Assembly: GCF_002591915.1 (NCBI RefSeq)
Contig: NZ_NIHB01000002.1
Span: forward strand, 628,133 to 692,132
Direction: 5' to 3'
DNA from: Marinicella litoralis
GTDB lineage: Bacteria > Pseudomonadota > Gammaproteobacteria > Xanthomonadales > Marinicellaceae
DNA length: 64,000 nt
Shown here: positions 51,854-54,262 of the stretch, one piece after another
Numbering within the stretch: the stretch's first letter is position 1
How the letters are laid out: each line of letters opens with the position of its first letter
Made by a program: the position numbers and the translations under genes
The notes under the pieces: model-generated
The model's database searches: none
What the model was told of the DNA's origin: nothing
Seen by the model: the letters and a program-made list of their open reading frames with translations, nothing else

Positions 51854-52732
51854 TCACTTTCTGATAGCCACCACTTGATTTTTTCCATTGCTTTTAGCAA
51901 GGTACAATGAATTGTCAGCACGTTTGATGGTATCCATCACCGACTCATTATTTTTCAACTCCGCAACTCCCAAGCTGACTGATATTTTCTCATTACCCAT
52001 TTTAGGCGGCATTGTTATTCCAAGCACCCTTAATCTGATTTTTTCGGCAAACTCACACGCTTTATTGACATCGCTGCCCAGCAAGCAAATGGCAAATTCT
52101 TCACCACCCCAGCGACCAATGACTTGGTTTTTACTCATTAATTCAAGCAGAGACTTACCAAGATCACTGAGGAAGCTGTCACCTGCCAGGTGTCCCATGG
52201 TGTCATTGTATTTTTTAAAATCATCTAAATCAGCAATAACAAACGACAAGCTCAAGCTGTTTTTTTGTGCCACTGCCTCAAAGGCTTTAAACTGTTGCAA
52301 CATCCCTCGTCTGTTATACAGTCCTGTCAGCTCATCGGTAATGACTTGACGTTCCAGGATTTTGTTTAAATTGACAAAATCAGAAATCCAGTCTTTGACA
52401 CCAAAAATAATGAGGGTAAATGCAATCACCAAGGTAAGCTTTTCTCCGATGGCGGTATAAAGTTCACCATGAAAATGCAACTGGTCTAATGCATCTATAT
52501 ACATAGAAATAAATGCCAGAACAAAACCCACATTTAAATAAGAATAATATTTTTTTCCTTTCAATTGATCAATGGTAAAAAATAAAATGGCTGCCATAGT
52601 GGCAAACACAAATTCTGCCATTAAATTAAATACGCGTACGTCTTCAAATCGCTCCAACCAAAAAAAGTCATACCCAGCAAATACAACAACAATGATCAAT
52701 AAAACGATCGTTTTTTTATAATTAGGCCACAT
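51854..52732 (-). CDS. membrane diguanylate cyclase (GGDEF), six-helix
   Basis: 292 residues with five to six N-terminal hydrophobic helices (about 8-118) and a C-terminal GGDEF domain that begins ITDELTGLYNRRGML and has RWGGEEFAICLLG. The residues before GGEEF are SKNQ, so there is no I-site. The long gap upstream holds a candidate small RNA with its own terminator, so this gene probably has a separate promoter in 52733-52913, or is controlled by read-through past that terminator. Confidence 0.9.
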   Translation of the reverse strand: MWPNYKKTIVLLIIVVVFAGYDFFWLERFEDVRVFNLMAEFVFATMAAILFFTIDQLKGKKYYSYLNVGFVLAFISMYIDALDQLHFHGELYTAIGEKLTLVIAFTLIIFGVKDWISDFVNLNKILERQVITDELTGLYNRRGMLQQFKAFEAVAQKNSLSLSFVIADLDDFKKYNDTMGHLAGDSFLSDLGKSLLELMSKNQVIGRWGGEEFAICLLGSDVNKACEFAEKIRLRVLGITMPPKMGNEKISVSLGVAELKNNESVMDTIKRADNSLYLAKSNGKNQVVAIRK

Positions 52733-52913: not shown

Positions 52914-52943
52914 AAAAAAAAAGGCGCCATAAAATGACGCCTT
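52914..52943 (-). terminator. intrinsic terminator of the candidate small RNA
   Basis: Minus-strand RNA: AAGGCG-U-CAU, loop UUU, AUG-G-CGCCUU, then nine U. The lone C-A mismatch on the plus strand is a U-G wobble on the minus strand, and the T-run is only on the minus side, so orientation is clear. No gene reads into it from the right, which implies an unannotated minus-strand transcript. Confidence 0.8.
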
Positions 52944-53040
52944 AAGTATAACGCTGAGGAAGAGGGAGGAAAACCTCAGCTGTTTTTGCATGTGACAAAC
53001 ATGAAGTCTGGCACATACATGAAATCTTGCGATTTCAAAT
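52914..53040 (-). ncRNA. candidate structured small RNA with C/U-rich loop
   Basis: On the minus strand three hairpins follow one another. The first is GAAATC-GCAA-GATTTC (53036 down to 53021), a 6-bp stem capped by a GNRA tetraloop. The second is GCTGAGG ... CCTCAGC (52980 to 52953) around a 14-base pyrimidine loop, UUUUCCUCCCUCUU, that is complementary to Shine-Dalgarno sequences. The third is a terminator at 52914-52943. Between the first two are two imperfect 18-base direct repeats (AGATTTCATGTATGTGCC / AGACTTCATGTTTGTCAC). The 5' end is uncertain (about 53040-53080); TAGAAT hexamers lie at 53061-53072 but no good -35. An attenuating leader of the downstream cyclase gene is the alternative. 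Confidence 0.5.
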
Positions 53041-53317
53041 GGGAACAATGAAAATTCCTAATTCTAATTCTACGCATCTAAGATGAATAGAACGTGAAGA
53101 TAAATAAAATAATTAAACTTCAAACAATATATTTTATTGTTATTGCCTTTGATGCATTGTTGAATCAAAAGTTCAAATTATTATGATTAATTCATTGCGG
53201 TTTCAAACAACCGTTTGATTCAATCTATGAGGGGCATTTTAACTACATATTGAAAAGAAACAAGCTAATTGTTTTTGTGTTTCGGATAAATTATACTTAT
53301 GCGAAAAAATCATATAT

Positions 53318-54262
53318 ATGTCTAATAAATACAAAAACATCCCTCCATTGAGAGCCATCAAAGCTTTTGAGGCTTCTGCTCGGCTGCTTAGCTTCACCCA
53401 AGCCGCCCAAGAGTTACACGTTACCCAAGCTGCCATCAGCCATCAAATAAAAAATCTTGAAGTATTAACTGGCGTACAACTGTTTCAGCGGTTCAATCGA
53501 TCGCTTAAATTGACATTTGAAGGACGGCTTTATTTAATTTCAGTCAGAAATGCTTTAGAAAGCATTGAAAAAGCCACACGTCAACTTAAAAACAAAGACG
53601 CCTCAGGAACACTTAATATATCAGTACTGCCCTCTTTCGCCACCAAATGGCTGTCTAAACGCATTTGGCGCTTTCAACAACAACACAAGGAATTGGATGT
53701 CAGGATATCGGCATTCGAATGGTTGACTGACTTTAAAAAAGACGATTGTGACATCGCCATACGTTATACCGCAGACCCCAATTATCCAGGATTAAAAAGT
53801 GAACTGTTACTTGAAGAAGAGGTGTTTCCCGTCTGTTCTAAACAAGTCTACGAATCATACCAAGGAAAATTAACACCTAAATCATTACTGAATGCCAACT
53901 TGTGCCATGAAGACTTCACCACTGAAGATTGGCATGATTGGTTTGATGCGGTTCAAATTCAGGCAAAACCCAAATTAAGAGGCACACGGTTCAGTCACAT
54001 GGTAACCATGCTGGAAGCGGTTGAGAATCATCAGGGCTTTGCCTTGGGCCGAACCCCATTGGTTCAGGATGACATCAACCGAGGCTTATTGGTAGAGCCA
54101 TTTAAGCAAAGAATCAAAGGCGAAATGTCATATTATTTGGTCTACCCGAGATCAACCGAGAGTGATCAAAAGTTACAAATTATCAGGCAATGGTTATTCG
54201 CGGAAGCTGAACAATTCAAAAACAGCCATCAAAGCCAATCATCTTCTTCAGCAAACAAATAA
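53318..54262 (+). CDS. LysR family regulator, GcvA-like
   Basis: 314 residues. The N-terminal wHTH has PPLRAIKAFEASARLLSFTQAAQELHVTQAAISHQIKNLE (about 9-48), the GcvA/AmpR-subgroup form. The effector-binding domain starts near residue 92 (GTLNISVLPSFATKWLSKRI) and includes CDIAIRYT. GcvA-like proteins regulate amino-acid or beta-lactam related genes, but the target here is unknown since the nearest gene upstream is a cyclase on the other strand. The 3' end overlaps that of obgE by 34 bases on the opposite strand. Confidence 0.92.
   Translation: MSNKYKNIPPLRAIKAFEASARLLSFTQAAQELHVTQAAISHQIKNLEVLTGVQLFQRFNRSLKLTFEGRLYLISVRNALESIEKATRQLKNKDASGTLNISVLPSFATKWLSKRIWRFQQQHKELDVRISAFEWLTDFKKDDCDIAIRYTADPNYPGLKSELLLEEEVFPVCSKQVYESYQGKLTPKSLLNANLCHEDFTTEDWHDWFDAVQIQAKPKLRGTRFSHMVTMLEAVENHQGFALGRTPLVQDDINRGLLVEPFKQRIKGEMSYYLVYPRSTESDQKLQIIRQWLFAEAEQFKNSHQSQSSSSANK

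Follow-up and report, generated by a model that had tools for sequence, protein, structure and literature searches.

Genomic context and structure of the element

The window, a stretch of 64,000 nucleotides of the Marinicella litoralis genome, carries a structured element on the minus strand (about 53060-52914), which comprises four hairpins and an intrinsic terminator and lies between a divergent gcvA gene and, about 180 nt downstream of it and on its own strand, a gene for a GGDEF diguanylate cyclase (Table 1). The first-pass annotation of this DNA had described three of the structures: a minus-strand terminator whose U-G wobble and U-run exist on that strand only, a hairpin with a GCAA (GNRA) tetraloop, and a 7-bp hairpin with a 14-base loop. 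The terminator was found exactly at the place proposed, and both hairpins were recovered as well, the loop of the second being UUUUCCUCCCUCUU. The extent given for the element (52914-53040), however, did not hold, as a fourth hairpin and a conserved 5ʹ tract had been overlooked, with which the element reaches approximately position 53060. The 5ʹ end of the putative small RNA (sRNA) is predicted to lie about 10 nt ahead of CATTGTTCCC.

The terminator stem (AAGGCGUCAU-UUU-AUGGCGCCUU, 52943-52921) contains one U-G pair and is followed by the U-run at positions 52920-52914; read on the plus strand, the U-G pair becomes a C/A mismatch and the U-run is lost. The minimum free energy of the element was -51.9 kcal/mol, as compared to -26.3 +/- 3.2 kcal/mol for shuffled sequences (z = -8.0), and equally stable folds were found in two of the 906 non-overlapping 141-nt stretches into which both strands of the window were divided. 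By folding energy alone, neither strand was favoured consistently across the species; however, 20 cells of the alignment of homologs hold G-U pairs on the minus strand that turn into C-A mismatches on the plus strand. The loop of hairpin 3 had an unpaired probability of 1.00 in each of the five homologs computed, and hairpin 2 was retained when each homolog was folded singly, with compensatory changes present.

Table 1. Coordinates of the genes, RNA features and promoter-region elements discussed in the text (positions in the window, unless a contig or locus is given)
Feature	Position	Strand	Remarks
gcvA, LysR type, divergent	53318..54262	+	NF008352 GcvA, 326 bits against a cutoff of 288
GAACTTT-N15-TCAAA (TTTGAACTTT...TCAAA), between gcvA and the sRNA	53148..53174	-	conserved in gcvA-linked loci
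TTCAC-N6-TTCAT, 11-bp direct repeat	53083..53098	-	placed like a PhoB/OmpR-family activator box
-10 element TAGAAT	53067..53072	-	15 of 17 loci have TANAAT exactly 10 nt past the box
Putative small RNA	52914..53060	-	about 147 nt, with ends deduced from the promoter (5ʹ) and the terminator (3ʹ); fold, homologs, covariation
Unpaired 5ʹ tract AUUUUCAUUGUUCCC	53041..53055	-	second candidate seed; mostly unpaired in the ensemble
Hairpin 1, UGAAAUC-GCAA-GAUUUCA	53020..53037	-	GCAA tetraloop
Hairpin 2	52987..53019	-	length and sequence vary, hairpin always kept
Hairpin 3	52953..52980	-	7-bp stem GCUGAGG/CCUCAGC, 52980-52974 with 52959-52953
Anti-Shine-Dalgarno loop UUUUCCUCCCUCUU	52960..52973	-	14 nt; contains the αr8 10-mer UUUCCUCCCU at 52972-52963
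Intrinsic terminator	52914..52943	-	10-bp stem and U-run; pattern scan
GGDEF diguanylate cyclase gene	51854..52732	-	downstream neighbour, outside the sRNA unit
Second RNA, own genome	G000:C1, ~1471817-1471919	-	loci L067/L100
Second RNA, other loci	L101, L102, L105, L108, L112, L113, L120, L125

Conservation and covariation

A search of 399 genomes of the order with a covariance model (R1) recovered the whole element in 17 of the 18 genomes of Marinicella (M. sediminis, M. marina, M. meishanensis, M. pacifica, M. gelatinilytica) and diverged homologs in three genomes of the sister genus. By DNA search, the element was located in 16 congeners and in the genome of origin, which has one copy. 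The lone congener without it (G015) is represented by a fragmented, 81%-complete assembly, in which the sole match was weak and terminator-like. In a class-level sample of 369 genomes, the element was present only in the genome of origin, and outside Marinicella and the sister genus no homolog was found among approximately 770 genomes of the order and class. Elsewhere in the order, matches were weak, and one of them, locus L060, has no gcvA neighbour and was treated as unrelated; the off-family pattern-scan matches L022 and L025 were also set aside, the rest of the RNA being missing there. Within the window, no Rfam family reached its threshold.

With a single copy per genome and a mean column identity of 76%, the homologs left room for a covariation test. 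In the alignment of 17 sequences, 96% of the cells hold standard pairs, and 11 of the 28 base pairs have changed on both sides, a count equalled in none of 500 shuffles; the compensatory changes in relatives that the first-pass annotation had made decisive for its proposal are thus present. When the pairing partners were slid by one to three columns, zero to three compensatory pairs remained. Since RNAalifold had been applied to this very alignment to obtain the structure, the slid controls are biased towards that structure, and more weight is due to the compensatory counts.

Covariation was seen in hairpin 1, hairpin 2 and the terminator. Two of the six counted pairs of hairpin 1 changed on both sides (AU to GC and UA to CG), with 100% of its cells paired, and the terminator stem differs between species (GGCGUCA, GGCGCCA or GGGCCUC) with the U-run kept. 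The stem of hairpin 3 is invariant within Marinicella; in the sister genus, it is lengthened (CCGGUGAGG/CCUCACCGG) with one compensated pair, its loop is UUUCUCCUCCCUCUU, and the RNA as a whole is longer (182-203 nt), with an additional hairpin, which is followed by a different terminator. While the stems drift, the loop and the 5ʹ tract stay unchanged: UUUUCCUCCCUCUU has the same sequence in each of the 17 Marinicella homologs, except that an extra U is optional (14-15 nt), and UUCAUUGUUC in the 5ʹ tract is invariant in these 17 and is also present in all three sister-genus homologs.

Neighbouring genes

The gcvA gene adjoins the element in 16 of the 17 Marinicella loci and in all three loci of the sister genus (19/20). 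At the remaining locus (L017, on G011:C45), a cold-shock-protein-like gene takes the place of gcvA, and both the sRNA and a TTCAT-N6-TTCAT box are retained. The downstream side is variable. The GGDEF gene keeps its position and orientation in most congeners, but among the 16 Marinicella loci read it follows the element in 10, and in the other six a 2OG-Fe(II) oxygenase gene comes directly next; the sister genus has a convergent gene at this place, which we take from its sequence to be uvrA. The genome of origin also has an hfq gene. Between it and an hflX-like sequence lies a reading frame (L157, 1622-2155) with several copies of a peptide-length unit, FRGTRTNSRANRQEGKRGSYPCQSVVERSETEIGSLVLRAQP, which is probably an intergenic repeat.

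Promoter region

Activator boxes of the PhoB/OmpR family consist of two 11-bp direct repeats that end 10 nt before the -10 element. An arrangement of this kind, TTCAC-N6-TTCAT-N10-TAGAAT, spans positions 53098-53067 upstream of the sRNA, and the two loci in which the -10 element deviates have TAAGAT (G008) and GATAAT (G011). The generalized pattern TTCAY-N6-TTCAT-N10-TANAAT has a single match in the genome of origin, which is the promoter-like region of the sRNA, and 15 of its 17 matches in the 18 genomes are in the same position; in these genomes, no further conserved member of a regulon of the TTCAC-N6-TTCAT box was found.

The interval from gcvA to the sRNA holds a further conserved element (GAACTTT-N15-TCAAA). 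GAACTT was found in all 16 gcvA-linked Marinicella loci and is missing at that place in G011, which has no adjacent gcvA. A sigma-E promoter was considered for this element; however, elsewhere in the genome it has five exact matches, none of which is a gene promoter, and its spacing is constant with respect to gcvA (approximately 139-147 nt, from positions) and variable with respect to the sRNA (92-122 nt). It resembles an ECF sigma promoter in sequence and may be a promoter of the ECF type or, alternatively, an operator linked to gcvA. GcvA sites have CTAAT as their core; this motif recurs near gcvA, but no conserved copy was seen near the sRNA promoter.

Comparison with known small RNAs

The αr8 family includes MmgR of Sinorhizobium and SisA-D of Caulobacter and corresponds to Rfam RF00519 (suhB). 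This was the best sub-threshold Rfam match over the sRNA (23.5-24.3 bits for the sequence of origin, L011 and L016, against a gathering score of 41). The αr8 10-mer UUUCCUCCCU is present in all 17 Marinicella homologs, and the sister genus carries UUUCUCCUCCCU instead. The core 10-mer of Caulobacter SisA pairs with the mRNA of a TonB-dependent receptor ahead of its start codon, and the resulting repression was shown with compensatory mutations (PMC12559287). The Marinicella sRNA shares with this family the exact 10-mer, the anti-Shine-Dalgarno signature and the Rho-independent terminator (PMC12559287); however, its 10-mer sits in the apical loop of a stable 7-bp hairpin, whereas that of αr8 RNAs is single-stranded and follows a weak hairpin. 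It also differs in its extra hairpins and 5ʹ tract, its gammaproteobacterial host, and the lack of an adjacent N-formylglutamate amidohydrolase gene. With a score under the gathering threshold and a 10-mer outside a single-stranded stretch, membership in αr8 was rejected.

The first-pass annotation had compared the design to that of sX13, a C-rich-loop sRNA of Xanthomonas, in the same order, that represses at the ribosome site (PMC3771888). The comparison holds for the strong structure, the C-rich hairpin loop, the intrinsic terminator and the presumed pairing with G-rich ribosome sites (PMC3771888), and fails in other respects. sX13 has three loops with C4/C5 runs, and the Marinicella sRNA has one C/U loop and no CCCC run in any hairpin loop; sX13 adjoins polA and is confined to Xanthomonadaceae, whereas the neighbours here are gcvA and the GGDEF or oxygenase genes and no homolog was found outside the family. 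As regards Hfq, of which sX13 is independent, the Marinicella genome carries an hfq gene. Membership was rejected on the CCCC loops, the polA linkage and the occurrence in Xanthomonadaceae. The sRNA is closer to αr8 in loop sequence, and to GcvB in position, than to sX13.

As in enterobacteria and vibrios, where gcvB (RF00022) is divergent from gcvA and has variable downstream genes (PMC9409037), the Marinicella sRNA lies divergent from gcvA with changing genes behind it. It is, however, shorter than GcvB and lacks the G/U-rich R1 region, its conserved unpaired parts being C/U- and U-rich. The GcvB covariance model gave nothing above 42 bits in the 18 genomes, and with this score and the missing R1 seed, membership was rejected. 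C/U-rich anti-Shine-Dalgarno loops are also known from AbcR1/2 (PMC8844928) and from NmsR of Neisseria (PMC5362039), which repress translation at the ribosome site, and from the CCUCCUCCC-loop RNAs of Rhizobiales; AbcR1 is moreover activated by the product of an adjacent LysR-type gene (PMC8844928; PMC3927594; PMC5362039). These RNAs differ from the Marinicella sRNA in loop sequence, architecture and hosts, and no sequence relationship was seen.

Target searches

Searches with strict patterns, made for both the loop and the 5ʹ tract, revealed no mRNA common across the genus. In the 18 genomes, the loop pattern GAGGGAGGA before ATG gave six rows in four genomes with no common gene, and GGGAGGAA gave 21 ORF starts among the 60 sites listed, of which only rplV was common, to two genomes. 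The 5ʹ-tract pattern GGGAACAATGA matched, apart from the sRNA itself, mostly by chance within genes. The 11-nt complement of the loop, GGAAGAGGGAG, is nearly confined to the two RNA genes themselves (the sRNA and the second RNA described below), so any target pairing must be partial.

Proposed identity and mechanism

We consider it likely that the element encodes a stand-alone trans-acting regulatory sRNA of about 147 nt, whose C/U loop pairs with the Shine-Dalgarno regions of several mRNAs and blocks ribosome binding. The initial proposal, a free-standing small RNA that exposes an anti-Shine-Dalgarno loop and has its own terminator, appears well supported by the sequences compared: promoter, structure and terminator are conserved and the downstream gene changes, as would be expected of an RNA that has its own promoter and does not depend on that gene, and the conserved, unpaired, Shine-Dalgarno-complementary loop resembles those of trans-acting anti-Shine-Dalgarno sRNAs. 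Transcription would start at the promoter near 53060 and end at the terminator at 52914. The rigid hairpin 3 would then present the unpaired loop to purine-rich Shine-Dalgarno regions of the GGGAGG/GGAGGA type in several mRNAs, and base-pairing there would block ribosome binding and repress translation. Hfq is probably bound at the 3ʹ U-tail, and a second seed is probably provided by the invariant 5ʹ tract, UUCAUUGUUCCC. Transcription is probably controlled by an activator acting on the TTCAC-N6-TTCAT repeat, possibly together with GcvA. We infer repression in trans from the complementarity of the loop, from the precedents of αr8, sX13, AbcR1/2 and NmsR, and from the presence of hfq.

Among the other explanations, a Marinicella orthologue of GcvB, that is, a GcvA-activated regulator of amino-acid uptake diverged past recognition, is the one that the position of the element would suggest, given the divergent GcvA-family gene at 19 of 20 loci with variable downstream genes, as for gcvB (PMC9409037), the activation of gcvB by GcvA in E. 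coli (PMC3658693), and the fact that no other over-threshold GcvB was found in the 18 genomes. We nevertheless regard it as improbable. The model scored 19.6 and 15.7 bits at the sRNA, against 42 and no better than background, the seed is C/U-rich with the R1 region missing, and G011 keeps the sRNA without an adjacent gcvA. Because the model was negative and the CTAAT motifs recur near gcvA rather than near the sRNA promoter, the position is that of GcvB but an identity with GcvB is not supported. A somewhat lower probability still is given to a titrating RNA, whose loop would pair with G/A-rich RNAs or with ribosome sites in general and damp translation globally, like toxic anti-Shine-Dalgarno RNAs. 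The failure of the pattern searches to single out a conserved target and the recurrence of the loop in a second RNA are consistent with it, as are sub-threshold matches to a toxic sRNA of Betaproteobacteria (26-28 bits against 50), but these matches rest mainly on the terminator. Furthermore, the invariant part of the loop is longer than a generic CCUCC core and the separate 5ʹ tract is likewise invariant, which suggests specific partners.

It is very doubtful that the element serves the GGDEF gene as a 5ʹ leader or attenuator, with a conditional terminator that governs read-through. The distance and orientation of that gene in the window and in most congeners would fit such an arrangement; however, another gene stands there in six of the 16 Marinicella loci read, the convergent uvrA of the sister genus leaves nothing to read into, and no alternative antiterminator pairing appeared in the folds. 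The variability of the downstream gene thus speaks against a leader function of the sRNA for the diguanylate cyclase gene. Hardly credible at all is a functional RNA on the plus strand, where GGAAGAGGGAGGAAAA, with its GGA motifs, would be exposed by the complement of hairpin 3 as a loop that binds CsrA, since the 20 G-U cells permit pairing on the minus strand only, the terminator U-run and the promoter are both on that strand, and no conserved plus-strand promoter was seen.

With the trans-acting anti-Shine-Dalgarno sRNA as the preferred reading, the element is, by its sequence and fold, a real and conserved one that is as yet undescribed and has the design of this class. It has no Rfam match and thus apparently represents an undescribed family, and no paper on Marinicella sRNAs was found in the literature. 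The clean covariation, the invariant 14-15-nt seed and the defined promoter make it an sRNA ready for testing. A more speculative extension, which we consider rather unlikely as a whole, is that the gcvA-linked position in Marinicellaceae is held by an unrelated RNA with an alphaproteobacterial αr8-type anti-Shine-Dalgarno seed, through which a signal of GcvA or of the PhoB/OmpR family would bring about a broad repression of mRNAs for nutrient uptake, and which would share its loop with a sibling RNA between rluD and pgeF. Such a hybrid of GcvB-type wiring and αr8-type targeting, in which an unrelated RNA at the position of gcvB carries the 10-mer of αr8, would be a case of convergent evolution of both sRNA seeds and wiring.

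A second RNA and a similar loop elsewhere in the order

In nine Marinicella genomes, a second structured RNA of 82-83 nt lies between genes that we presume, from their translated flanks, to be rluD-like and pgeF-like, and in four genomes, including that of origin, its locus was also matched by covariance model R1. Its outer stem (GGGGUCAAUU/AAUUGACCCU) has a U-run behind it, and the loop of its inner hairpin (CUUUACUCCCUCUUC) is identical to that of the first RNA at 12 of 14 positions. The terminator-like U-run stops at the presumed start codon of pgeF in most of the nine genomes. The second RNA may be a sibling sRNA, or it may be a cis element of pgeF; with its near-identical loop, it would form a possible sibling pair with the first RNA in the Marinicella lineage.

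A similar loop, UUUUCCUCCCUUU, was also noticed at locus L060 in another family of the order (G344:C2:838183-838318, minus strand). There, the gene context is different, and a hairpin (AACGGUUGAG-UUUUCCUCCCUUUG-CAACCGUU) with a strong terminator behind it is possibly an independent anti-Shine-Dalgarno sRNA.
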